Shown: positions 43,552-58,661 of the stretch, piece by piece | Position numbering within the stretch: the stretch's first letter is position 1 | Layout of the letters: each line of letters opens with the position of its first letter | NCBI GenBank assembly: GCA_001247695.2 | Contig: LGRX02003734.1 | Span: 47,318-111,317 of the forward strand | DNA length: 64,000 bases | Source: Cymbomonas tetramitiformis | Taxonomy: Eukaryota > Chlorophyta > Pyramimonadophyceae > Pyramimonadales > Pyramimonadaceae | Direction of reading: 5' to 3' | Notes under the pieces: model-generated | The model's input: the letters and a program-made list of their open reading frames with translations, nothing else | Databases searched by the model: none | What the model was told of the DNA's origin: nothing | Translations under genes and position numbers: made by a program

Positions 43552-45016
43552 TCAAAAGATTTTACAACTGCGAAAGTTGCTGTGAACAAGATGTGCAAAA
43601 GAAGAAGACACAATCTCAGGAGCAGACGTCAATATGTGTGGCGTGTATGTGGCGCAACGTGACACAAAGCACGAAGGAGCGGGACGGATCATATGAACCG
43701 CAAGATCATATATCTAACGTTTGAACCAGACCCAGCACTGAGCGTTGGTGGAGAAATGTCCCATAGACCTACCAGTCGACGACTTGAGGTGCAGTGTCAA
43801 TAGCACAATCCGACAGGGATTGCGGCGGCATACGCGGCAATTTTCTGAAGAATAATTGGACAGTTGTGAAGCCCAGCGTAACGGTGATTATATGACGCGT
43901 CAGCATTTCTACTTTTCGATCAAATCGATCTATGTCGATGGCGCATGTGGGGTATTGGCAGACGTCAGATTGATACAAAATTAATAATAGCAACATTATT
44001 GACACGTGTCAGCAGTAGGTTGCCCTCGATGCAAGGCAAAATGTGCCAAGAACCCCAAGATCTACCGTTTATAATAGCCTTCCTCCATGAAATGACAAAA
44101 GTCATAGGAGGTCAGGACGGAGCGTTTATGGTGATGGTGGTCGTAAAGGCACACAACGACACAACCGGTCTACTGGTGATCTGGTGTCGATATTTAGCAT
44201 CCAAGGGCTTATGTTCAACCCATTATTTTTGGCAAAGATATCGACGGCTGGTGGTGACTAGTCGTTGACTGGTGGTCGCTACCACTTCCACGTAGGATTT
44301 TATGGACACTAGACACAACCCGCCAGAAAAGAGCGAATGCCGTCAGATTTCCAGAGCGTTAAGCCCCATTATGAATGTCCGCAAGATCGCATCCGCAAGC
44401 AATTGAAATGGCGCTGACGCGACATTGTTGACGCTCACAATTGGTGAGATGCGATGCCGATGCGATCTGATCGTGTTCTATGGTCTCGATGGCGATAATG
44501 GCGAATGGGAACTGTGGGAAGCTCAAGCTGGGAACGCGAACGGCACTACGGCAGGTTTACGCCCTATCAGCTATCTCGTATCGGTACTGTATCTCCTGTT
44601 CTTTAAGCTCAAGCTTAAGGTAATACAGTGCAGGTGGCCCATAATTAATCCCCTTCGCCCTTGGTCGCATCGATCATCGAGCGAGCTCGATTCTCGAGGC
44701 GCTCGAGAAACTCTCAGTCCTGCTACCAGCGCGTCGCCAAGGCCAAGTTCAAGACCACTCTGGACGCGACCAAGGCGTTCCACCAGATTCCCATGACCAC
44801 TGGCTGACTAGCCAAACTCATAGTCCTACCACAAGGACACCGTACAATGCGTATTTATGAACCCATGGTCTACTCAAAGTGACCAACCTACTGGTTTCAT
44901 ATGTTATTTATGTGTGAAATCAATGTCCTAAATGATAGGGCCTAGTCCAGCAAAATGTTTTCGTTCCACGGTTGCAGCCCATGGGGCAAATTCTCGGGCC
45001 GAAGGCTCGAGTACTC
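43552..45016. other. Intergenic with retroelement debris
   Basis: Apart from a reverse-transcriptase fragment (next entry), nothing is recognisable. This interval should contain the SHMT promoter close to 43552. Confidence 0.4.
44690..44808 (+). pseudogene. Ty3/gypsy-type reverse transcriptase fragment
   Basis: A short frame reads KFKTTLDATKAFHQIPM, matching motif A of Ty3/gypsy reverse transcriptases, and stops at once. LEALEKLS in another frame just upstream looks like the preceding conserved segment. Only about 40 codons survive. Confidence 0.45.
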
Positions 45017-45249
45017 TCATGGGGAGACAGACTTTCGCCCCCCCCGCATAAAATGGGGGTGACTGTCTCTTCCTGTGTCACCCCTCGCCGTGTAGTGTCA
45101 CTTGCATCTTGCCTGCCGTCAGTTCCGTCCGATAATAAAACACCTAAGCTATTTTATTATCTCATCTTAGTCTCCGTATGTCTTTGCGAGTGCCCGACCA
45201 ACCTGTGTATATATATATATATGATATATATATTTCAGGTTCTCCATCA
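45017..45249 (+). repeat. 5' LTR
   Basis: A 233-bp sequence starting TCATGGGGAGACAG and ending GGTTCTCCATCA, nearly identical to 58088-58315. It contains AATAAAA and a TATATA tract. The 5 bp before it (TACTC, 45012-45016) equal the 5 bp after the second copy. Confidence 0.85.
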
Positions 45250-45747: not shown

Positions 45748-46207
45748 CCTCGCCGCCGTGTTCCTCGTCAAAATCTACCCCAATTTGACTTTTTCATCGT
45801 TCGATTTGGTTATTTTTAGCGAAAGTTACGTTTTCGTTTGGGAACCCTAGGTTTTGGGCTCCAGATTTTCCAGCTTGCAGCTGCCATGGCTTCGTATCAT
45901 CAGCGTTCGCGCATTTCTGCAGTTGCCTCCGCGCTGCAGGTGGTTCGGCTACGTGGACTTACCCCTGGCTACGATCTGGTGGTGTCTGGTGGTGCTTATG
46001 CACCAGACACCAAGTCAAGTCCATCACCCTCATCGTCAACATGAGCTTTGACCACTACGAGCTCACCCCGCAGCATCCTCCACTCTTCCCTCCACCCTGC
46101 GTGCCCCTTGGCCACTGCGTGGTGGTGTTTGGTGGTGGAGCCGTCGCACGAGTGAGAATGGCTTAAGTATGTGTCACAACTATAATGGAATATTTCTATG
46201 ATGTTAT

Positions 46208-47235
46208 GTAATCGCTGTGGAATCGCAGGAATTTAAAAAATACAACTTTTTTTCATTTTCCCAAAAAAATATTTTTTCAGGGTGAAATCGCCGAAAAACC
46301 GTTGTTTTTAGCTTGATTTGGCGTCCTACTCCATTATGCGGGTGAGGAGTGCAGCGATTCGTGGAATTGAGGGGTTTCACATATCACGTTATTAATCCTG
46401 ATGGTCACCGCAATTTGAAATTTTGAAAAAAAATATTTTTTTGGCTCAAATCGGTCGAAAATCGCGGTTTTTTGCCTGTTTCGGCCTGTCGCGGGCCTGT
46501 TTTGGCGTTCTACGCCACTCGGCGTGTGTGGAGTGCACATATTCGTGGAAATGAGGGTTTTCACATATCACCTAAGCACTCCTGATGGGAATCGCAATTT
46601 GAAATTTTGGAAAAAAAAATTTTTTTGGCCCAAATTTCAACAGAAATCGATTTTTTTGCCTGTTCCGGCCTGTCGCGGGCCTGTTTTGGCGTTCTACGCC
46701 ACTCGGCGTGTGTGGAGTGCACATATTCGTGGAAATGAGGGTTTTCACATATCACCTAAGCACTCCTGATGGGAATCGCAATTTGAAATTTTGGAAAAAA
46801 AATATTTTTGGGCCCAAATTTCAACAGAAATCGATTTTTTTGCCTGTTTCGGCCTGTCGCGGGCCTGTTTTGGCGTTCTACGCCACTCGGCGTGTGTGGA
46901 GTGCACATATTTGTGGAAATGAGGGTTTTCACATATCACCTAAGCACTCCTGATGGGAATCGCAATTTGAAATTTTGGAAAAAAAATATTTTTGGCCCAA
47001 ATTTCAACAGAAATCGATTTTTTTGCCTGTTTCGGCCTGTCGCGGGCCTGTTTTGGCGTTCTACGCCACTCGGCGTGTGTGGAGTGCACATATTCGTGGA
47101 AATGAGGGTTTTCACATATCACCTAAGCACTCCTGATGGGAATCGCAATTTGAAATTCTCGGAAAAAAATATTTTTGGGCCCAAATTTCAACAGAAATCG
47201 ATTTTTGGCATGTTTCGGCAAGTTGCGGGCCTGTT
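46208..47235 (+). repeat. Left terminal inverted repeat, ~184-bp tandem units
   Basis: TTTCACATATCAC recurs at about 46375, 46559, 46743, 46927 and 47110. Each unit carries CCTGATGG, GCAATTTGAAATTTT, an AAAAATATTTTT tract, CTGTCGCGGGCCTGTTTTGGCG and GTGGAGTGCACATATTCGTGG. The outermost unit is the most diverged and matches the outermost unit on the right. Confidence 0.9.
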
Positions 47236-47656
47236 TTGGCGTTCTACATGTACGTATATTATATACTCATGCGTGCGAAGTGTGCATATTCGTGGTCTCC
47301 AGGCCTGTTTCAGTTGGAAATTTGTAATTGCATACGAGTTGCCATCACGAGGAACACAAGCCTGTCATTATCAAAACATGAATATAATTTGTTATTTGGA
47401 TAACGATTAGCTGGAGCACAATGGAAGCGTGTTGGACCCATAACCTAACACTTTTCAGGAAACATTTGCATTTCTTTTGCTCTTCACATCTCATTGCCAA
47501 TAGGCACACTGCATAGCATTTCAATAAAAATAGCTTTATTTTTACATGCTTTTAAGTGTGTGAGAGAAAATCTCTTTTCGGAATATATCTCTTCTAGGCT
47601 GATTCACAGCTTCACATGCTTTTTAGGCTGATGCACAGGCTCCAATTTAACCATAT
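47236..47656. other. Spacer inside the large transposon
   Basis: AT-rich, no ORF. It follows the left inverted repeat and would hold the 3' UTR of the 819-aa gene. Confidence 0.4.
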
Positions 47657-50116
47657 CTAGGGGCGGCGCATGCCAGGTCCATAAAACGGGTCCCATGATT
47701 GCCGCGGCTGTGAGGACCACTCAGGCGGAAGCTGCCTTGACAAGGCTGCATTCAGCCTCATCGCCTGCCGTAAAGGCATCGTGACCAGCTGCTCAGGGTA
47801 CTGCTGCTGCACCGCCAACGCATAACCTGGCATGGCATCATGGGCCGCACGGCCGTGGGGTGCCCGATAGGTCTGCGCATACGGGGTCTGCGCAGCATAC
47901 GGGTCCAGCCCCAGCATCATGGGCGGGTACTGGGGGAGGGCGGCGAGGGCGCGCCCGTGATGTTGGGGAGGTACGCTATCCGAGTTATAATAAACCCCAC
48001 CATACACCCACTCATATGGCATCTCCGGCGGAGCAGTCTCACCAGGGGAGCTGGGCGCGTGGAAAAGCACGGGTCTTGACGGTGCTGCTGCGGACGGTGC
48101 TGTTGCGGTGGCAGCTGCAGGCGGTGCATCTGTGGTGGCAGCTGCAGGCGGTGCTGCTGCGGTGGCAGCCGCAGGCGGTGCTGCTGCGGTGGCAGCTGCA
48201 GGCGGTGCTGCTGCGGTGGCAGCTGCAGGCGGTGCTGCTGCGGTGGCAGCCGCAGGCGGTGCTGCTGCGGTGGCAGCCGCAGGCGGTGCTGCTGCGGTGG
48301 CAGCTGCAGGCGGTGCTGCTGCGGTGGCCGCGGCAGGAGATGCTGCTGCCGTGGCCGCCGCTTGCGGTGCTGCTGCCGTGGCAGCTGCCGTGGCACCTAC
48401 CTCCGGCCCTGGGGAGGCAGCCGACGCAATCCCTGCCTGGGCCAAGGCGGCTGCCCCCTGCGCCAACTGCATCTTCAAGGCCTGGATCCTCACCTGAGCC
48501 TCCAACTCGGCAATCTCCGCCTGACGGGCCTTCGACGCCAACACCGGAGGTTCAGCTGAGCTCGGTGTCACCTCCCTTCGCCCCTCCCAACCTTCCGACT
48601 GTGGCCTGGCCAAGTCCGTCGTCAGGCTCCCCGTCGCCGCGCGCTCCCTGTTAAACAGCTCCGCGGCGTCTGCACTATGATGATGCATCCGGCTGTCAAT
48701 GGGCGTGTTGCGGCCCACTGAATCGTTGAAGAGGTTTAGGGGATCGAGCACTCCCCCAGGGGAGTGCTCGAAAGGCCCTGAAGGAGTACCCACCTGCGTA
48801 TCCAGCTCCTCCAATGCCAGCGGGGCTCGCGCAGACAACGGCCCTCTTGGTATGCTTGCTTCTGCCTGCTCCGTGTCCGTGTCCGACAATTCGTCCGGCT
48901 CCGACTGTGCAGCACGAGGGCCATGAACTGGACAAGGGCTCCTGCGTTTCCTGTCGGAGCCACCCTCCACTGCTGCCGCCGCTGCCTGCTGCGAGCGCGT
49001 TCGTCTCAAAGACTGCAGTGGGTCACAAACCTCAGGCACTCTCTGAGTGGAGCCGAACGCGGGGAGAGTCTCGGAGATGTTCCCCTCAGCGCCTGTCCTC
49101 CGCGCCTTCACCCTGGTGCCTGGCTCCGGTCCTTTACCCCAAACAGGGGTCTCAGTGCCCGCGGGGCTACCTCCCCGTCCACGCTTAGTCCCCCGAGGAA
49201 TTGCCAATGCCATCTTTATCCCAGACAGGGTTTCCGCCCGGAGCTTCTTCGCCTTCTCCCTCTCCGCTGCTGCAGCCTTCTCTTTCTTCGCCTTCTCCCT
49301 CTCCGCTGCTGCAGCCTTCTCTTTCCTCGCCTTCTCCCTCTCCGCTGCTGCAGCCTTCTCCTTCTTCTCCTTCTCCCTCTCCGCTGCTGCAGCCTTCTCC
49401 TTCTTCTCCTTCTCCCTCTCCGCTGCTGCAGCCTTCTCCTTCTTCTCCTTCTCCTTCTTCTCCGCTTCTGCTGCTGCTGCTGCTGCTGCTGCAGTCACCG
49501 GCGGCTTCAACTCGCCGGTCAACGTCTCCGCATGCCCCTTCCCATATGCCTGCAAACTTTTCATCACCCGAATCACCCCCTCCTCCACCAGACCGTGCTT
49601 AAAGGAATTGTATGCCTCATCAAAAAAGCCTCCTTCCTCGTTGATGTTGTCGTAGTATACTACCTCCCAATCCCTGGCTTGTGTTATCAAACTTAGCTTG
49701 CTGTTCAACGCCGTAGCGCGGAACAGCACCCTCCTCCGCGGAATCTTACTCCCCACTGGATCCGCCACAAGCCACGGCCCATATACCCAGCATGCCGTCC
49801 CTTGTTTTGCACCTTCCCTTGGCTTCACGATGGGGCCACCAATCCAGACCACCTCCTTGTGCTGTTCGTGGTACACAACCCTCCCAAAAGCCACCGTATC
49901 CCTCAGAAGCTCCCGCAACGCCAGGCACGCATCATACTCCTGTGGCTCCCCAAGCACCACACTCCTCCCCATATCCTCGTCAACCTCATTGATCGCGTTC
50001 GCGAAGTCGATCTCCCGCTCCAGGGCTGTCATTGCCTGGGAAGGCTCCGAGGTAGTGGCTCGCTCAATTCCTTGCGAGTCATAATGCTTTCTTCTGCAAG
50101 GGTCATGCCCAACCAC
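47657..50116 (-). CDS. 819-aa transposon protein with coiled coil and Ala/Pro repeats
   Basis: The N-terminal ~190 residues look globular (LREFGRV-type region: LLRDTVAFGRVVYHEQHKEV, then ACWVYGPWLV and RRRVLFRATA), with no family recognised. Then comes a long coiled coil of 11-residue KEKAAAAEREK repeats, then disordered segments, then about nine copies of a 9-residue AAPPAAATA repeat, and a C-terminal Pro/Tyr/Gln-rich tail. The first codons overlap the end of the dioxygenase gene (50029-50116), so translation may start at the internal Met near 50032. It may be a structural or DNA-bridging partner of the transposase. Confidence 0.6.
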   Translation of the reverse strand: MVGHDPCRRKHYDSQGIERATTSEPSQAMTALEREIDFANAINEVDEDMGRSVVLGEPQEYDACLALRELLRDTVAFGRVVYHEQHKEVVWIGGPIVKPREGAKQGTACWVYGPWLVADPVGSKIPRRRVLFRATALNSKLSLITQARDWEVVYYDNINEEGGFFDEAYNSFKHGLVEEGVIRVMKSLQAYGKGHAETLTGELKPPVTAAAAAAAAEAEKKEKEKKEKAAAAEREKEKKEKAAAAEREKEKKEKAAAAEREKARKEKAAAAEREKAKKEKAAAAEREKAKKLRAETLSGIKMALAIPRGTKRGRGGSPAGTETPVWGKGPEPGTRVKARRTGAEGNISETLPAFGSTQRVPEVCDPLQSLRRTRSQQAAAAAVEGGSDRKRRSPCPVHGPRAAQSEPDELSDTDTEQAEASIPRGPLSARAPLALEELDTQVGTPSGPFEHSPGGVLDPLNLFNDSVGRNTPIDSRMHHHSADAAELFNRERAATGSLTTDLARPQSEGWEGRREVTPSSAEPPVLASKARQAEIAELEAQVRIQALKMQLAQGAAALAQAGIASAASPGPEVGATAAATAAAPQAAATAAASPAAATAAAPPAAATAAAPPAAATAAAPPAAATAAAPPAAATAAAPPAAATAAAPPAAATAAAPPAAATTDAPPAAATATAPSAAAPSRPVLFHAPSSPGETAPPEMPYEWVYGGVYYNSDSVPPQHHGRALAALPQYPPMMLGLDPYAAQTPYAQTYRAPHGRAAHDAMPGYALAVQQQYPEQLVTMPLRQAMRLNAALSRQLPPEWSSQPRQSWDPFYGPGMRRP
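48095..48385. repeat. 27-bp Ala/Pro minisatellite (copy 1)
   Basis: GCTGCTGCGGTGGCAGCTGCAGGCG units, about ten. They follow a unique entry sequence (GGTCTTGACGGTGCTGCTGC) that is also present at the start of copy 2 in the neighbouring gene. Confidence 0.9.
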
Positions 50117-52170
50117 AAACTCCCAGGGCGACCAGTTACAGTGGCGGATCCAGTGACCGGAAAAGTGGTGTTTTCCGGAAAGAGGTCTTCCGCCGCTGTA
50201 ATGTAGGTGTGCGCCGACGCACGAAAAGTTCCACCGTGCATCTCCACCGCGTTGTGGATTAGCCTGCCGTCAAAGATCACCACGCTCTTTGCCGGCAGGA
50301 AGCAGGTCACCGGCCGAAGGGTGTCCGGGGTGGCCCCATCCCCCAACTTATGCGACTGGGGGTACACCGTAAACGGGTACATGTCCGTTAGGACAAGCAT
50401 GACGGACAGCGCACCATAGTCCCGATGCTTCTCCTGAACCAACGCCGCCGGGTAGGTGAGCAGGGCGGTTCGCGCCATGTCACCTTTCGGCACCTCCAGC
50501 TTCCCGAACGTGTCCCCCACCGCAGCCATGACGTCCTCAGCCACCTGCTCAAACCGTTTGTAAAACGGCGTGCCCTCCACCAGGTTCCCGATCCACCTCT
50601 TCGGGTCCTTCAGGGTGTCCAGCTCCCCATTGGCCTTCTTCTTGAACGCCCTGAAGTTGTTTCTGAACGCGGAGTTTGGAGCCAAATCCTTCTGGAACTC
50701 TGCAACCAGAGCCTTAGCGGATATCGTGTCCTGCAATTGACCGACACAATACCCACCCTCTGCAAGCCTATGCCTCCAGTGTTCGTCCAGCAGCACGCCT
50801 TTTGTGAAGTGAGGCTGCTCCTCCGCATTCTTTGCCCCCTCCGCAGCAGGCACCTTAGGAGCAGGCGTCTCTCCAGCATCTGTGCCCTCCTCTGTATCTG
50901 GCACCTCCCCAGCGGACTGATGCTTTGAAACTGGGGCCTCCACAGCAGGCACGTCCACGGCAGCAGGCGTCTCTGCAGCAGCCGTGCCCTGCTCTGCAAC
51001 TGGCTGATCCTCAGCAGACTTGTGCTGAGGATCAGGGGCCTCCACAGCAGGCATGTCCTGTGAAACCGGGGCCTCCACAGCAGGCACGTCCACGGCAGCA
51101 GGCGTCTCTGCAGCAGCCGTGCCCTGCTCTGCAACTGGCTGATCCTCAGCAGACTTGTGCTGAGGATCAGGGGCCTCCACAGCAGGCATGTCCTGTGAAA
51201 CCGGGGCCTTCACAGCAGGCGCGTGGAAGAGCGCGGGTCTTGACGGTGCTGCTGCGGACGGTGCTGTTGCGGTGGCAGCTGCAGGCGGTGCATCTGTGGT
51301 GGCAGCTGCAGGCGGTGCTGCTGCGGTGGCAGCCGCAGGCGGTGCTGCTGCGGTGGCAGCCGCAGGCGGTGCTGCTGCGGTGGCAGCTGCAGGCGGTGCT
51401 GCTGCGGTGGCAGCTGCAGGCGGTGCTGCTGCGTCGGCATCGCCTGCCTCCTTCTTAGAAATTAGCGACAACTGATGCTTCTCCACCAGCCCGCCTCCTG
51501 GTTCTGCGCGAACAACGGCTGCGAACGTGGGCGCCTCCTGTAACGGAGCTTCGTCCATGTTTGCAGCAGCCTGCTGCTGCGCTGCCATTCCCTCAGCCTT
51601 CTCCGCGCTGGCAGCAGCAGCACCAGTATCCGCAGCAGCCTGCCCATCATCAGGGTTCGGCGAGGCCGTGCACGCCCATTTGACAGGAGGCTGTCCAACG
51701 CAGAGATGGCGCCCGCATGTTGAAGAGTGGCTGTCTCCGGATTTTCGGCAGTTCTTGTGGAACCCGCGCTTGCAGGTCGCGCAGGTAACAAGCACTGGGA
51801 AGTGATTCTCCGAACCCATTCCGCAAAAGAGGCAGAACAGGCGGGCCAGGATCCCGCAGCGCCCGCATTCCCCTGGAAACCGCTTTTCCCCTGACGGTGT
51901 GAGCTGGCGCGACGCGCACCCAACGTGGAAGGAGTCGGAGCACATGTCGCAGGTCGCCAACGCCAGCCTCGTTCGATCCAACGAGTCGTCGGGATGGGGG
52001 CACCCTTCCACATTGCAGGCGGGTACTCCTTCACTCTCGGCGACACCTTCCACCAGTTTCCGCTCTGACTTCCGATCTGACTTGCGCCTTAAAGCGTTTG
52101 GCACGGCTGCCCCAACCGCTGCTGCATAGGTGAATCTGTTCTGCTTCATTATTAGAATATTAGCTCCCAA
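50029..52170 (-). CDS. PHD-like zinc finger / 2-oxoglutarate-Fe(II) dioxygenase fusion (713 aa)
   Basis: Residues ~53-108 and ~114-170 are two Cys/His clusters with PHD-type spacing (CDMCSDSFHVGC; CATCKRGFHKNC). Residues ~180-460 are low complexity: the AAPPAAATA repeat and two copies of a longer PAVEAPVSQDMPAVEAPDPQ-type repeat. The C-terminal ~220 residues carry a double-stranded beta-helix dioxygenase pattern: EKHRDYGALSVML (His582 and Asp584 as the HxD iron ligands), YPQSHK, VVIFDGRLIHNAV (distal His639) and FRASAH (Arg650, 2OG-binding position). All three iron ligands and the Arg are present, so it may be active. PHD fingers bind histone tails, so a chromatin or nucleic-acid substrate is plausible but inferred. 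It could equally be a PhyH/prolyl-hydroxylase-like enzyme. It is divergent from the transposase gene across a repeat-bearing spacer. Confidence 0.7.
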   Translation of the reverse strand: MGANILIMKQNRFTYAAAVGAAVPNALRRKSDRKSERKLVEGVAESEGVPACNVEGCPHPDDSLDRTRLALATCDMCSDSFHVGCASRQLTPSGEKRFPGECGRCGILARLFCLFCGMGSENHFPVLVTCATCKRGFHKNCRKSGDSHSSTCGRHLCVGQPPVKWACTASPNPDDGQAAADTGAAAASAEKAEGMAAQQQAAANMDEAPLQEAPTFAAVVRAEPGGGLVEKHQLSLISKKEAGDADAAAPPAAATAAAPPAAATAAAPPAAATAAAPPAAATAAAPPAAATTDAPPAAATATAPSAAAPSRPALFHAPAVKAPVSQDMPAVEAPDPQHKSAEDQPVAEQGTAAAETPAAVDVPAVEAPVSQDMPAVEAPDPQHKSAEDQPVAEQGTAAAETPAAVDVPAVEAPVSKHQSAGEVPDTEEGTDAGETPAPKVPAAEGAKNAEEQPHFTKGVLLDEHWRHRLAEGGYCVGQLQDTISAKALVAEFQKDLAPNSAFRNNFRAFKKKANGELDTLKDPKRWIGNLVEGTPFYKRFEQVAEDVMAAVGDTFGKLEVPKGDMARTALLTYPAALVQEKHRDYGALSVMLVLTDMYPFTVYPQSHKLGDGATPDTLRPVTCFLPAKSVVIFDGRLIHNAVEMHGGTFRASAHTYITAAEDLFPENTTFPVTGSATVTGRPGSLWLGMTLAEESIMTRKELSEPLPRSLPRQ
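50930..51215. repeat. ~126-bp coding repeat, two copies
   Basis: The block GGGGCCTCCACAGCAGGCACG...GGATCAGGGGCCTCCACAGC occurs twice, at about 50934-51057 and 51060-51183, almost identical, within the low-complexity linker of the dioxygenase protein. Confidence 0.9.
51240..51445. repeat. 27-bp Ala/Pro minisatellite (copy 2)
   Basis: Same unit, order and entry sequence as 48095-48385 but fewer units. It lies in the middle of the dioxygenase gene, in the same coding frame (AAPPAAATA). Confidence 0.9.
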
Positions 52171-52343
52171 TTTATACCAAAGTAACCGTCAATGCCTTCG
52201 TCCTCGATCCAAACGTCAATTGCGCAACGAAAACACGCGAAGAAAGTGCTATGGTCGCAGATAGCGTACAGTTCGCAGGTTGGCGTTACCGTTACAAGCA
52301 CTCGAGCTCTCAGTGAGCAGATATCGCACTTTTGGTCCGACAT
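52152..52343 (-). CDS. Small Cys-rich ORF upstream of the dioxygenase gene (63 aa)
   Basis: MSDQKCDICSLRARVLV... contains C-x2-C, C, H and C-x2-C (CFRCAIDVW) in zinc-finger-like spacing. It overlaps the start of the 713-aa ORF by 19 bp, so it may be a separate small protein or an alternative N-terminal exon. Confidence 0.4.
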   Translation of the reverse strand: MSDQKCDICSLRARVLVTVTPTCELYAICDHSTFFACFRCAIDVWIEDEGIDGYFGINWELIF

Positions 52344-53052
52344 GCTTACGGTTTTTAGGGGTCTCGTTCAGTTGTAAGATGTCGGGGGAGGGCTCTGATA
52401 TACATTATCGCCCTCCCGATCATCCCATCTTTTGATCGTGTGGGCGAACCGACATGCCGATTCGAGCTTCCTGTGCGCAGGTATCGGACTTTTGGCCTGA
52501 CATGCTTACGGTGTCGTGACGGAATTTCAATTAAATTATCTGATATGCATTATCGCCCTCCCGATCAGCTCATCACCTAATCGTGGGTGCGATACACGCG
52601 CCACGTGAAATATGACATGTCTGGGTGATAAATCATTACACGATCGAATCTTGAATCGAAATTTATGAATCGCCCGCAGGATCGACGAATTCGTTGATCG
52701 TGGGTGCGATACACACGCCACGTGAAATATGACATGTCCGGGTGATAAATCATTACACGATCGAATCTTGAATCGAAATTTATGAATCGCCCGCACGATC
52801 GACGCAGCAGTTGATCGTGGGTGCGATACACACGCTACGTCAAATTTGACATGTCCGGGTGATAAATCAAGAAATGGCGAATCGCCCCCACGATCGAACA
52901 GTCATTCCATCCTGGGGGCGATACTTACGCCACGGATACTTTTCGTGAAAGGACTATTCATATTCCTGATGCATGTGGGAGTCCGTGCAAAAGTTCAGAC
53001 ATGCAAATATGTTAATTGAAGGCGTGCTTTCGCCCGTAGACTCCTTACATGT
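52344..53052. promoter_or_regulatory. Divergent promoter region with 117-bp repeats
   Basis: The spacer lies between the minus-strand dioxygenase cluster and the plus-strand transposase. The unit ATCGTGGGTGCGATACAC...CACGTGAAATATGACATGTC starts at about 52580, 52697 and 52814 (117-bp period). An earlier pair, CTGATATGCATTATCGCCCTCCCGATCA (52395-52425 and 52540-52568), also recurs. The units contain CACGTG E-boxes. The placement suggests shared regulatory or transposase-binding sites. Confidence 0.5.
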
Positions 53053-56000
53053 TTGCCGCTTATGAGTGGCGTTTTTCGAAAAGGGATGCCTCCTCCTTCT
53101 TACCTTGTGGATGTATTGCCATGGCTCATGAGCCTCGGCGACATGGCGCGGAACTTGCCTTTGGAGTTTCCTATTGCACCAACGAATGTGGATCATGCAA
53201 CAGAACTAGCGGGGCAGATCTCGGAGTTCGTCGATAAATGGAATGTGTTAACTGGGAATAAACCGAGCAGAGATCCTAGCGTGCTGCAGGCAGGTGGGGT
53301 TGGGAGGAATGCGAGGAATGCGCCCACACCTACCAGTACCGTTAAGAAAAGGCGCCTTGATCAGAATGCGCGAAGGAGGGAAGCTCGCTCTAGGAAGCGT
53401 TTAGACTTGGGCAAGGACGCGGTGGAGGTCTCTGCGCCTCAAGCACGGGTGAAATCGACGCTGGGTCCCTTAGGCGCCACAGCAGCCTCCGCAGGAGCCT
53501 CAGCGGTGGGTTGCCTGGTGCCGCATGGAAGTATACAACACTGGAACAACAAGCTCAAGGAGGTTTTCATGAACAAGCCGCATCTTATTGGTGGGGCGCT
53601 CTCGAACTTTGTGCGCACCTTACCCGCGGAAGAGATAGAAGCTGTGCGGCTAAGATTTCTGTCAGAGGAGGATCGCGTAGGAGGAACGATCGTGTCGAGC
53701 TTGCGGGCATCGTTCGCCGCTCTAGCTGGATATGGTTCCAGGCAGAACGCTGCCACGCGCATGGCGGGCGCAGCGATGGTATTTGGCAGAGACGTGGAGG
53801 GTGTTGAGGGTGCTGTTGCAAGCATCTTAGGGATAAATGTGAAGGTGGTGAAGGATGGACTCGTTGGGCACCGCAACTTGCTGTTGGGAGCTGCCCTTGG
53901 GACAGCGCAACGGCTTAATGCCGGTCTTCTGGCAGGGTTGGTCCTGGAAAACCTGCACATGGCCAACCGTGCTATAAGCGCGGAGCTGACCCACAAGATC
54001 CAAGCCTTCTGGCTGAGTGCTGGGATCAGTCGGGTGTCCACGTGTAAACGGGACGTGATCCAGCTGCGGCATATTGATGGAAGCGTGGAGAAGGTGTCGA
54101 AGCAGTGGTTGGAAATGACACAGTTGGAGGTGTTCCGCAAGTTCAAGAAGAAGTTTCCCGCCGAAAAGATCGAACTCCGATCTTTTGAGACTCGGAAGCC
54201 GAGGCAAGTGCAACGACTCACCCGAAGGGACACCATTTCCTGCTGCTGCAGGTACCACGAGGATATGCGGTTGGTGGTGGAGGCGTATGCTCGTTTCCAG
54301 GAGGTGGGCCACTCCGGCTGCAAGTGCACGGACGCGTCGTGTTGCCCTCGCGTTGGAGGCCTTCGGGCACGGCTGTCTGCCCGTAAACCATTTCCTGCTT
54401 TCCCGGACTTCAAGTGTGGTCGAGTGGAGGTGGGACGGTCAACCTCCGGTTTCACGGCATCGCTGCTGTGTCCAAGACAGCGGTCGAACGGAGAGCACGA
54501 GGACCACCACGACATGCCCTGCTTGGAGGGTTCTTGCAAACGGTGCGGGGGGCTGCAAAACTGGTCGTTGTGTCCGGCGGCGGTTTCCAACACTGCCACG
54601 CTGGACTGGCACACCTACGAGAACGTTCATATCGGAGTGGACGAGGACGGGAAGAACAAGCACCGGGTGCAGTTCGTCCAAAAGACGACCACTGCTGGTG
54701 AGCTGCTTGCAAAACTGCAAGCTCTGCTCCTTGGCCACGCCCCAGGGGAGTCCCCAAATTGTGTGTGTTCGGGCACGTTTGTGCGGAAAGCGGCGGACGG
54801 GAGTTGGAGGTTGGAGAAGTTGGTCGGTGTGCCTGCTGCCCAACCGTGTCGGTTTTTGAAGCCGTATGCCTACCACTGTTTCATGGCCACGCACTCCATG
54901 ACAATGTTCAACAAGTGCAAGGCGGGCTTGCCTTTGGGGCACTGCCTCATATTGTTTGACTTCAGCGAGAACCACGCTCTGAACATTCCCAGGGCGATTC
55001 AGTCGTTGCACTGGATAGTGAAGCAAGCAACGCTGCTGTGTTGTGTGTTATGGCGGCACGCGGTTGGTTCCGTGGATGGTCAGACTTCCACCGAGGCCAA
55101 CCCAATAATAGTGAAGGACCTGATCTACCTCATTAGCGACACCTTGCCGCACTCCCACCGAGGTATCCAACATATGAGGAAACTTATCGTCAGTGAGTAC
55201 TTCGTGAAGAGAGGTATACCTCTCCCCAAATTCATGCATGAGTGGGCGGATGGTAGTGCGGCACAAAACAAATGCGCAACCGCATTTGCCGACGTGGTGG
55301 AGAGCGGGCGGGAAGAGTCGGCGGAGTGGCCCCGAGGGCTTGGCATCCCGACACAGCGCAACTTCTTTGAGACGTCACATGCACGAGGTGAGCAAGACGC
55401 GATGGGAGTAGCGGTGAAGCATGAGGCGAGCTTGGCGGTGATGTCCACAACCGACAAATGGCATTGTAAAATACTGGACGCCAAAAGCTTGTACGAGTTC
55501 TGCATGGAAAGGTTGCAAAAGCCGAAGGATAGCGCTCGCGACAGAGGTGTTCAGTTCGGGCAAAGATTTTTCTTTCTGGTTGACGGCAAGGACGTGGACA
55601 TCTCTGGACCTGGGTTTGACACGGTTGACCGGACTTTGGCGTTACACTCGGTGCGTGCAGGGGTGGGGTTGTTGGTGGGCTTGAAGCGGGACCGACAATG
55701 CTATTGCGATTATTGTTACGCGCAGTGCGCGAAGGCACAACCTGACACGGAGGGTTGCCTGTACCGGAGTCACGTGGACAGCTGGGAGCAGTTCACCTTG
55801 ACGGAGGCAACCGAATCTGATGCCCGGCGCACCAGAACAAGAGTCGCGGAGGCCCGTGATGACGTGAGTGTGAAGGTTGCACGAGGAAACACTTTTGCAA
55901 GGCTGTCGGGGGGCGATCCTAATCACCCCTACTATTTGGTGAAGGCGTTGAGCGAGGTGAAGCAGGTGATCAACGCGGATGGGATGCGAGACGACTACTA

Positions 56001-56241
56001 CTCGCCTGGTGGGGAGGGCGTAAATGCTACACCGGGGGAATTTGTCGTTGAAGGCCGATTTTATGAGTGGGCGGATGAGGAAAGCTGCGAGGAGTACTAC
56101 ATAGACACATCCAAGAAATGTCTGACATATTCGCATCATGTCGTGTGTGTGGAAGTGACAATGACCAGACGCAAATACCGCGGTAAGGAGTTTTATAGGT
56201 TGACCGATGCTGAGCACCAGCGCATTCTAGGGTTGTTGTGA
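53053..56241 (+). CDS. DDE-like transposase of the large element (1,062 aa)
   Basis: Uninterrupted ORF. Residues ~80-140 are basic (KKRRLDQNARRREARSRKR) and may carry a nuclear signal. Cys/His clusters at ~394-435 (CCCRYHED; CKCTDASCCP) and ~490-510 (HDMPCLEGSCKRCGG) suggest zinc binding. The catalytic-type core is LFDFSENH (Asp636), EWADGSAAQNK (Asp733) and FFETSHARGEQDAMGVAVKH (Glu780 or Asp782). I know this pattern (DFxEN, W/SDGxxxQxK, TSHxxGxxDxxGxxVK) from uncharacterised eukaryotic transposon proteins, but cannot assign a named superfamily. A C-terminal Cys-rich part (CYCDYCYAQC) follows. It probably excises and integrates the element. No stop or frameshift is seen. Confidence 0.65.
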   Translation: MPLMSGVFRKGMPPPSYLVDVLPWLMSLGDMARNLPLEFPIAPTNVDHATELAGQISEFVDKWNVLTGNKPSRDPSVLQAGGVGRNARNAPTPTSTVKKRRLDQNARRREARSRKRLDLGKDAVEVSAPQARVKSTLGPLGATAASAGASAVGCLVPHGSIQHWNNKLKEVFMNKPHLIGGALSNFVRTLPAEEIEAVRLRFLSEEDRVGGTIVSSLRASFAALAGYGSRQNAATRMAGAAMVFGRDVEGVEGAVASILGINVKVVKDGLVGHRNLLLGAALGTAQRLNAGLLAGLVLENLHMANRAISAELTHKIQAFWLSAGISRVSTCKRDVIQLRHIDGSVEKVSKQWLEMTQLEVFRKFKKKFPAEKIELRSFETRKPRQVQRLTRRDTISCCCRYHEDMRLVVEAYARFQEVGHSGCKCTDASCCPRVGGLRARLSARKPFPAFPDFKCGRVEVGRSTSGFTASLLCPRQRSNGEHEDHHDMPCLEGSCKRCGGLQNWSLCPAAVSNTATLDWHTYENVHIGVDEDGKNKHRVQFVQKTTTAGELLAKLQALLLGHAPGESPNCVCSGTFVRKAADGSWRLEKLVGVPAAQPCRFLKPYAYHCFMATHSMTMFNKCKAGLPLGHCLILFDFSENHALNIPRAIQSLHWIVKQATLLCCVLWRHAVGSVDGQTSTEANPIIVKDLIYLISDTLPHSHRGIQHMRKLIVSEYFVKRGIPLPKFMHEWADGSAAQNKCATAFADVVESGREESAEWPRGLGIPTQRNFFETSHARGEQDAMGVAVKHEASLAVMSTTDKWHCKILDAKSLYEFCMERLQKPKDSARDRGVQFGQRFFFLVDGKDVDISGPGFDTVDRTLALHSVRAGVGLLVGLKRDRQCYCDYCYAQCAKAQPDTEGCLYRSHVDSWEQFTLTEATESDARRTRTRVAEARDDVSVKVARGNTFARLSGGDPNHPYYLVKALSEVKQVINADGMRDDYYSPGGEGVNATPGEFVVEGRFYEWADEESCEEYYIDTSKKCLTYSHHVVCVEVTMTRRKYRGKEFYRLTDAEHQRILGLL

Positions 56242-56404
56242 AGAAGTATAACTATCACAGCAGGATAGATCACTAGAATCTTAGAACCCAAACAACACCA
56301 TGCTGAATAGCATCTACTCTCGGCGTGTTGTGCATAACGCCCAACAGGGCCCACGCAAAATATGCCAACATAACAACGATTCTGTAATCGATTTGGGTAA
56401 TTTT

Positions 56405-57530
56405 CAAATTGTGAGTCCCATCAGGAGTGTTTAAGTGATATGTGTAAACCCTCATTTCCACGATTGTGTGCACGCCGCACGCGCCGAGTGGCGTGGAACG
56501 CCAAAACAGGCCCGCGACAGGCCGAAACAGGCAAAAAAATCGTTTTCTGTTAATTTTTGGGCCCAAAAATATATTTTCCCCCAAAATTTCAAATTGGGAG
56601 TCCCATCAGGAGTGTTTAAGTGATATGTGAAAACCCTCATTTCCACGATTGTGTGCACGCCGCACGCGCCGAGTGGCGTGGAACGCCAAAACAGGCCCGC
56701 GACAGGCCGAAACAGGCAAAAAAATCGATTTCTGTTAAAATTTGGGCCAAAAAAATATTTTTTTCCAAAATTTCAAATTGCGATTCCCATCAGGAGTGCT
56801 TAGGTGATATGTGAAAACCCTCATTCCCACGAATATGTGCACTCCACACGCGCGGAGTGGCGTAGAACGCCAAAATAGGCCCGCGACAGGCCGAAACAGG
56901 CAAAAAAACCTATTTCTGTTGAAATTTGGGCCAAAAAAATATTTTTTTCCAAAATTTCAAATTGCGATTCCCATCAGGAGTGCTTAGGTGATATGTGAAA
57001 ACCCTCATTTCCACGAATATGTGCACTCCACACGCGCGGAGTGGCGTAGAACGCCACAACCGGCCCGCGACAGGCCGAAACAGGCAAAAAAAATCTATTT
57101 CTGTTGAAATTTGGGCCCAAAAAATATTTTTTTCCAAAATTTCAAATTGCGATTCCCATCAGGAGTGCTTAGGTGATATGTGAAAACCCTCATTCCCACG
57201 AATATGAGCACTCCACACGCGCGGAGTGGCGTAGAACGCCAAAACAGGCCCGCGACAGGCCAAAACAGGCAAAAAAACGCGATTTTCGGCCGATTTGGGC
57301 CAAGAAAATATTTTTTTCAAAATTTCAAATTGCGGTGACCATCAGGATTAATTACGTGATATGTGAAACCCCTCAATTCCACGAATCGCTGCACTCCTCA
57401 CCCGCGTAATGGTGTAGAACGCCAAAACAAGCTAAAAACAACGGTTTTTTGGCGATTTCACCCTGAAAAAATATTTTTTTTGAAAAATATTTTTCGCAAA
57501 GTCCTAAGAATTCATGCGATTCCACTGCGA
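56405..57530 (-). repeat. Right terminal inverted repeat, ~184-bp tandem units
   Basis: Inverted copy of the left array. CCATCAGGAGTG...TATGTGAAAACCCTCAT recurs at about 56420, 56605, 56790, 56970 and 57155, with the outermost unit (57320-57500) pairing with 46210-46440. Two inner units carry GATTGTGTGCACGCCGCACG variants not seen on the left. Confidence 0.9.
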
Positions 57531-58087
57531 CCGAAGTCCGATATAGCGATTCCATGGATATCATCGATTATGCATTTCGGCCATCTCACTCGTGCGACCG
57601 CTCGGTGTTGCAGCCCTCATCCCGCCGCTTCTCCTCTCTGCTTTCGCGCTTGCGTGAGTGGAGCCGCACCGCATTTTCCACCTTCGCCCCTCTCTCAGAG
57701 TGCCAGTCACCGCACGCGCTCTGGTGGTGCCGCCCACCCTCGCCCCGCACCGCGTGGGCGTTGGTTGACCGCATCCTGGCGGCGCTCGACCTCATCCACC
57801 ATCGAGAGCTACGCCGCCATCCACCCTCGACCACTGGTGCCTAGGAATGCCGGCTGGCCTGCGGGAGTAGCTTATCCCCGCAAGCACATGCATGGGCGTA
57901 AGCCCCTAGAGCACGCATCTAGAGACCAACGCAGGCTGAGCCACACTAGTTGGGTTGAAAAAAACCCCTTTGGATCTCACGAGATGTATGTTTCCTTAGG
58001 GTTTCGCCTTTGTGCTTGCCGTAGCATCTTAGGCCTGGCTTGGCAAGTTGGCATCGTGGCACCTCACACCTTCGGGGTGAGGTGGTG
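57531..58087 (+). other. 3' interior of the LTR element
   Basis: Between the right inverted repeat and the 3' LTR. An open frame at 57554-57844 is Arg/Ser/Pro-rich without a domain. A purine-rich GGGGTGAGGTGG just before the LTR could serve as polypurine tract. Confidence 0.35.
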
Positions 58088-58315
58088 TCATGGGGAGACA
58101 GACTTTCGCCCCCCCATAAAATGGGGGTGACTGTCTCTTCCTGTGTCACCCCTCGCCGTGTAGTGTCACTTGCATCTTGCCTGCCGTCAGTTCCGTCCGA
58201 TAATAAAACACCTAAGCTATTTTATTATCTCATCTTAGTCTCCGTATGTCTCTGCGAGTGCCCGACCAACCTGTGTATATATATATATGATATATATATT
58301 TCAGGTTCTCCATCA
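58088..58315 (+). repeat. 3' LTR
   Basis: A 228-bp copy of 45017-45249, differing by a few short indels in the C-run and the TATA run. It is followed by TACTC (58316-58320), matching the sequence before the 5' LTR. Near identity of the two LTRs implies a recent insertion. Confidence 0.85.
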
Positions 58316-58661
58316 TACTCCCAAAAATGCCCGTCGGCGAATTTTTTGAAACGCGGAATATTCCTTTCCAAAAATCCTTCATCTCCGTAAAGGATAATTT
58401 ACACTCTATATTTTGTACGGAATATTCTAATATCATGAAAATACTTAAATTGTTCACACCCACATATTAGTTTGTCTTATATTCCGGTCCTTCAATGCTT
58501 CAATTATCAAATAATCGAATTTCAATATCAAACTAAAAATGAAAACTTACTCTTCTGCTTGTCCAATCGATCAATTGTTGCAGACACTCTAGACACTTGC
58601 ATTCTGTTCTGTCCATCACTCGAGGCAAAGTGCCAAAATTTCCCGGGTCCAAAATGTATGT

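Follow-up and report, generated by a model that had tools for sequence, protein, structure and literature searches.

We describe here a large DNA transposon of the prasinophyte green alga Cymbomonas tetramitiformis, located in a window of 64,000 bp (contig C3006, bases 47318-111317; the window is the whole stretch of DNA analysed, and positions refer to it). Between terminal inverted repeats (TIRs) it carries two divergent genes, one for a DDE-like transposase and the other for a protein with two PHD-like zinc fingers, an Fe(II)/2OG oxygenase domain and a conserved C-terminal domain (Table 1). In a self-comparison, the left and right inverted ends are 93.5% identical over ~995 bp and form arms of ~1.1 kb built of ~184-bp tandem units; the left end begins GAGCCGTCGCACGAGTGAG and the right end, read inward on the other strand, begins GAGCGGTCGCACGAGTGAG. 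The 117-bp units of the intergenic region, at 52302-52921, repeat a TCGCCC...GATCG...GGGCGA-like motif and are a candidate regulatory or transposase-binding array.

Table 1. Features of the transposon and its target site (window positions).
Feature	Positions	Strand	Remarks
Whole element	46138..57603		11,466 bp; ends 5'-GAGC(C/G)GTCGCACGAGTGAG; copy alignments stop here
Target site duplication GGTG, left copy	46134..46137
Target site duplication GGTG, right copy	57604..57607
Left terminal inverted repeat, ~184-bp tandem units	46138..47250	+	self-comparison
Right terminal inverted repeat, ~184-bp tandem units	56399..57603	-	self-comparison
PHD-oxygenase gene	47657..52149	-	ATG at 52149, as in P0012; frame-broken here near 50.1 kb
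27-bp tandem array (Ala/Pro repeat), 3' part of PHD-oxygenase gene	48000..48464	-	second copy at 51137-51493
Conserved C-terminal domain	49500..50041	-	AFGRVV..HE.H..WI.G..VKP..WVYGPW..VLFR
Fe(II)/2OG oxygenase domain, PhyH-like	50110..50820	-
H582, D584, H639, R650	about 50425-50427, 50419-50421, 50254-50256, 50221-50223	-
Two PHD-like zinc fingers	51700..52017	-	conserved Cys/His pattern; Pfam PHD sub-threshold
Common intergenic region, putative divergent promoter	52171..53052		117-bp tandem units
Transposase ORF, 1062 aa	53053..56241	+	candidate catalytic D636, D733, E773

First, comparison of copies defines the element and its target sites. The initial annotation had placed an inverted-repeat element at 46208-57530; its inverted repeats are real, and its boundaries are rejected because the copy alignments end at 46138 and 57603, which makes the element about 70 bp longer on each side. 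Similarity to the window is lost at 46133-46139 in all seven other left ends fetched, and at the right side the match ends at 57603-57606 in 34 of the 39 other scored right ends (the best 40 of 785 candidates), the remaining five continuing for a few bases. We examined the target sites of 15 copies of this family (family A), ten of which are readable on both sides, and found a perfect 4-bp target site duplication (TSD) in eight of these ten if the outermost element base may vary (GGTG, CACA, CCCC, GCCT, CCCA, ACAA, ATTG and CTAT). Among the eight, the outermost base of one end deviates from the usual in C19752, C3247 and C21561. C11890 and C22156 show no duplication; 16 bases of left flank are identical in C22156 and C3247, perhaps an artefact of assembly or recombination. 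No 8-bp duplication occurs in any of the ten copies, and membership of the Kyakuja-Dileera-Zisupton (KDZ) group, which the initial annotation had already doubted from the transposase motifs, is rejected on the 4-bp rather than 8-bp TSD. Many near-identical copies with unrelated flanks are present in the 852-Mb assembly (851.7 Mb, 25,745 contigs), where our copy counts are lower bounds (element copies: the best 40 of 544 candidates). TIRs, a TSD and multiple copies in unrelated flanks mark it as a DNA transposon of class II (TIR/DDE), its DDE catalytic core being putative, and the initial observation of a transposon with inverted ends, a transposase and an oxygenase is confirmed.

The transposase frame is free of stops in 42 of the 43 scored family-A copies (the best 43 of 2746 candidates) and reaches the full self score in 18 of them, the window's own included, so the family has probably been active recently. 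Nine homologous proteins were found, four of them annotated in C. tetramitiformis (including P0001, CYMTET_17887) and five from ENA, JGI or NCBI sources that are 58-62% identical. D733 and E773 are invariant in all nine rows of the alignment and D636 in eight, P0007 being gapped there. Pfam gave no transposase-family match for this protein, and its motif set DFSEN ... DG..QNK ... FFE.SH.. may, in our impression, resemble a widespread animal transposase family. Short-word or tblastn searches, which would miss distant relatives, found no transposase relatives in viral_contigs or prokaryote contigs and no oxygenase relatives in viral_contigs; in phages there was no oxygenase match for family A and one at E=0.7 for family C, with the same blindness to distant relatives. 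A viral or bacterial source was thus not found in viral_contigs, phages and prokaryote contigs at the distances these searches can reach.

Second, the PHD-oxygenase is encoded by one gene. The three genes proposed initially are rejected in favour of two divergent ones, since ORFs 50029-52170 and 47657-50116 form a single gene that is frame-broken in the window copy: many other copies have one frame of ~1,500 aa (typically about 1,410-1,510 aa), and the annotated protein P0012 spans the junction of the two ORFs. An open frame of at least 1,400 aa is found in 73 of 109 first-ranked family-A oxygenase rows (identity at least 97%, the window's own included), and intact copies are present in the same genome. 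The upstream 27-bp array is apparently missing from some copies (alignments split around residues 247-291; P0012), and the occurrence of the same array twice in one gene, with the upstream one seemingly missing elsewhere, suggests exchange within the gene. The annotated Cymbomonas protein P0013 (CYMTET_29401) has the oxygenase and C-terminal domains behind another N-terminal part that lacks PHD fingers; this may reflect an error of the gene model or a different architecture.

The catalytic residues lie where the initial annotation had placed them. H582, D584, H639 and R650, which correspond to H132, D134, H189 and R200 of P0010 (the oxygenase domain), are invariant in all seven aligned domains (three from family A and two each from families B and C, described below), so that the H-x-D...H iron triad and the 2OG-binding Arg of Fe(II)/2OG oxygenases are complete in three families. 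Of the TET/JBP, AlkB, PhyH and JmjC profiles that had been suggested for comparison, PhyH is nearest: P0010 matches Pfam PhyH PF05721 with E=4.5e-4 and 21.0 bits (cut-off 22), the diverged family-A copy L075 passes this cut-off with 22.7 bits and L058 scores 19.0. AlkB and JmjC were not reported for P0010 at E<=5, in searches where the HMMER filters drop most matches above about 0.1. Tet_JBP was likewise not reported for P0010 by Pfam; the family-B domain matches Tet_JBP PF12851 weakly (E=0.05; 13.3 bits, cut-off 34.9) over the distal His/Arg part, and membership of TET/JBP was not borne out. Pfam gave no PhyH match for the family-B and family-C domains and no oxygenase match at all for family C. 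A three-family profile searched against the PDB gave weak matches in the distal His region to DhiD (8zyb) at E=0.021 and to 4xaa, a putative oxygenase, at E=0.74, the latter with a strength similar to that of an unrelated haptoglobin (E=0.34). PHROGs and NCBIfam scans returned weak, unrelated matches only, and the homologue searches with the oxygenase found Cymbomonas proteins only. In our reading, the domain belongs to the Fe(II)/2OG oxygenase superfamily and is PhyH-like in sequence and, by the same measure, not demonstrably TET/JBP.

The regions flanking the oxygenase domain are also conserved. When one sequence of each family (A, B and C) is compared, the two fingers show an invariant Cys/His pattern; as to the profile, Pfam PHD PF00628 matches family A below threshold (E=0.0062; 17 bits, cut-off 24), there is no PHD match of note in Pfam for families B and C, and the fingers of these two give comparably weak matches to other zinc-finger models (C1, E=0.073, for B; Dof, E=0.007, for C). 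The C-terminal domain, for which no Pfam family was found at E<=5, is 33-45% identical in families B and C.

Third, the oxygenase travels with the transposase, as the initial annotation had proposed, and does so in at least three related transposon families that sequence comparison distinguishes in this alga. In family A, an oxygenase lies on the same contig and the opposite strand, divergent and 1.9-2.3 kb upstream, in 40 of the 43 scored transposase copies. Copies lacking the oxygenase would have spoken against this reading; among the 43 there are three without it: the contig of C7633 starts only 1.9 kb upstream of the transposase, C2608 has about 10 kb extra between the left end and the transposase, and C20185 is unexplained. 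Family B was reached via transposase P0008, which is 63% identical to the window's and only 44% in the first ~370 residues. Here, PHD and oxygenase parts were present in six of seven informative upstream stretches (eight were fetched; the contig of C8410 ends too soon), and in the seventh, C12865, neither occurs within 9.5 kb upstream and the oxygenase is 14 kb away. Between the two genes of this copy (L078, C12865:9800-19300) lie ORFs that we take to be Helitron-like. The oxygenase is among the matches listed on the contig for 31 of the 57 scored family-B transposase copies (the best 57 of 2501 candidates; oxygenase copies, the best 150 of 876), and absence should not be read from the other 26, since only listed oxygenase matches were counted and several copies lie near contig ends. 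In family C (transposase P0007, 61% identical over the aligned parts), PHD and oxygenase were found in all five stretches fetched, from five of 49 transposase copies (the best 49 of 2671 candidates). The oxygenase is ~38-42% identical between the three families, and all share the terminus GAGCCGTCGCA, with GAGC(C/G)GTCGCA seen at the left and right ends of A, the right end of B (two copies) and the left end of C (five copies). Family B has a subterminal array of 173-bp units, and no comparable array was reported for the left end of one family-C copy. With the oxygenase beside the transposase in 40 of 43 family-A copies and in families B and C as well, chance pairing is rejected.

The arrangement of fingers and oxygenase in open frames differs between the families. 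Both parts are in one frame in family A; in family B, open frames of up to about 1,290 aa in some copies are long enough for both, and the parts are apart in L080. In the family-C copies fetched, they occupy separate ORFs a few hundred bp apart, which could reflect an intron, two genes or decay.

Fourth, dN/dS indicates that the oxygenase domain is under selection. Twenty copies from the more diverged family-A rows, each compared with the window copy, gave dN/dS values of 0.23-0.48, which share this one reference and are not independent and which point to purifying selection; a stop falls inside the domain in four of 150 scored family-A domains (the best 150 of 875 candidates). The composition of the element shows no clear footprint of 5mC at CpG. 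The flanks have observed/expected CpG ratios of 0.99 and 0.93, and the element as a whole has 0.90; of its genes, that for the transposase has 0.92 and that for the oxygenase 0.73, where the lower value may stem from composition (repeats, codon use) or from a mark; among diverged copies, CpG transitions are slightly raised (0.0085 per site, against 0.0063 for other C and 0.0047 for other G; 15 events). C5-DNA methyltransferase genes are present in the assembly, which makes 5mC a possible silencing mark; the C5-DNA methylase profile has 124 matches, on many contigs. Some of these matches may come from viral or bacterial contigs. Most are similar and short, covering about positions 57-126, and many of them lie in large ORFs (up to 2,398 aa), perhaps retroelements with a methyltransferase fragment.

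We believe that the best explanation, and one to which we lean with some reserve, is that the PHD-oxygenase is a reader-eraser protein that counters the silencing of element copies. The PHD-like fingers, perhaps together with the C-terminal domain, would bring the oxygenase to chromatin on these copies, where it would oxidise a methyl mark or hydroxylate a chromatin protein, and the intergenic promoter and the ends would thereby stay open to transcription and to the transposase. This explanation draws support from the TSDs, ends and copy number, the conserved pairing and termini, the HxD/H/R residues, the dN/dS values, the PhyH matches, the C5-methyltransferase genes and the fungal precedent discussed below; it is weakened by CpG values near expectation, by families B and C without a PhyH match, by PHD matches that are sub-threshold or very weak, by the separate ORFs of family C and by the broken frame of the window copy. 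Because the fingers are reader-like and no clear CpG footprint is seen, our first guess for the substrate, with a slight preference over 5mC, is a histone or a chromatin protein. KDM7-type PHD-JmjC histone demethylases similarly join a PHD reader and an Fe/2OG eraser in one polypeptide; unlike these products of cellular genes, the protein described here is transposon-borne and has no JmjC match in Pfam. Of the interpretation given initially, the mobile element, the co-mobilised oxygenase, its catalytic residues and the non-KDZ transposon are retained, and the gene trio and TET/JBP membership are dropped.

Part of the same evidence would also fit a transposition partner of the RAG2 kind, which we regard as unlikely though the most serious rival: the fingers would tether the transposase for targeting or licensing, and the oxygenase would modify the transposase or a local protein, with no reversal of silencing. 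RAG2 itself has a PHD finger and a transposon ancestry, and RAG1/RAG2 and ProtoRAG pair a transposase gene with a PHD-bearing partner, much as the divergent pairing here has been kept over deep divergence together with a conserved C-terminal domain. The likeness is one of gene content, RAG2 is not known to have an oxygenase, and a pure tether would not need the H-x-D...H...R residues, which are nevertheless invariant in the seven aligned domains. Less likely still, we consider it doubtful that the domain acts as a TET/JBP-like base oxidase on methylated bases of element DNA. The best match of family A is to PhyH and not to TET/JBP, and CpG is not depleted in the element overall or in its flanks, even though the methyltransferase genes of the assembly, the weak family-B Tet_JBP match (E=0.05, distal His/Arg part), the CpG value of 0.73 of expectation in the oxygenase gene and the precedent of fungal TET+ transposons in the available text of PMC12730594 would all suit such an activity. 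It is very improbable that the element captured the gene as a passenger that does nothing for it or that serves the host: giant transposons of Ectocarpus often have accessory genes of unknown use (PMC12477816, available part), but all three families have kept this one, its catalytic residues are conserved and its dN/dS is below 0.5.

Returning to the reader-eraser explanation, the nearest known kind is the TET+ transposons of fungi, and the green-alga element looks like an independent variant. According to the part of Kojima (2025; PMC12730594) available, fungal DNA transposons of 11 lineages, including KDZ, hAT, Harbinger, IS3EU, EnSpm, ESTA, Plavaka and Helitron, carry TET/JBP dioxygenases of the PU, AG and PE types, for which an escape from silencing is proposed, and Zisupton and Dileera have 8-bp TSDs. 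The elements agree in having a 2OG oxygenase beside the transposase and a proposed silencing escape; unlike the fungal ones as described in that text, ours resides in a green alga, joins a PhyH-like domain and PHD-like fingers in one protein and generates 4-bp TSDs. An independent pairing is supported, the transposon not being KDZ by its TSD. The main text of the same paper does not contain the words PHD, PhyH or AlkB, and 'alga' is matched once, in a citation concerning CMD1, an algal enzyme. Chlamydomonas is reported to have Zisupton and Kyakuja elements (PMC8226300, in excerpt). Giant Sola1 of Ectocarpus is likewise a large algal transposon with an antisense epigenetic-type accessory gene, in the available text a ParB-DNA methyltransferase gene opposite the transposase (PMC12477816), and proteins similar to a Sola1 accessory one are reported there from green and red algal transposons; unlike Sola1, our element carries an oxygenase, the comparison being one of descriptions and not of transposase sequence. 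The 4-bp TSD agrees with that of Sola2, which also captures accessory genes and whose cited transposase has 888 aa; unlike Sola2, for which the excerpted text gives AT-rich TSDs and TIRs of 12-21 bp (PMC3627910), our TSDs are of mixed composition and our ends ~1.1 kb, so that a relationship to Sola2 may be taken as a lead.

In a full-text literature search whose reach excludes most subscription papers and Repbase, no title or abstract start described this pairing. The published long-read assembly of C. tetramitiformis is reported to contain 68.3% interspersed repeats and lists 43.6% unclassified repeats, and the word dioxygenase is absent from the main text of that paper (PMC10675990, as far as available). 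The mobile element is real, its epigenetic-type gene is conserved, and the literature searched gave no earlier report from this lineage; the function of the gene would be as proposed above. Beyond this, we tentatively entertain, with more doubt than conviction, the broader possibility that an undescribed DDE lineage, marked by the terminus GAGCCGTCGCA and a 4-bp TSD, captured a PHD-PhyH-like reader-eraser long ago and independently of fungi, and that this protein acts on a new substrate (a histone, a chromatin protein or a modified base) to keep copies unsilenced. If the anti-silencing explanation is right, transposons would have gained an oxygenase against silencing on two or more occasions: fungal ones through TET/JBP, and one in a green alga through an oxygenase of different appearance, equipped with chromatin-reader-like fingers of its own. 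Such an element would offer a compact reader-eraser system open to experiment, would be a candidate source of a new oxidase of chromatin or nucleic acids, and would give access to the control of mobile DNA in a genome that is about two thirds repeats (available text of PMC10675990).

Finally, the insertion site of the window copy has a structure of its own. Two direct repeats of ~230 bp, 97% identical, lie on both sides of the element at 45012-45246 and 58088-58320 and are themselves bordered, by eye, by TACTC at 45012-45016 and 58316-58320; judging by this pair, the transposon seems to have inserted into a short non-autonomous element of LTR type.
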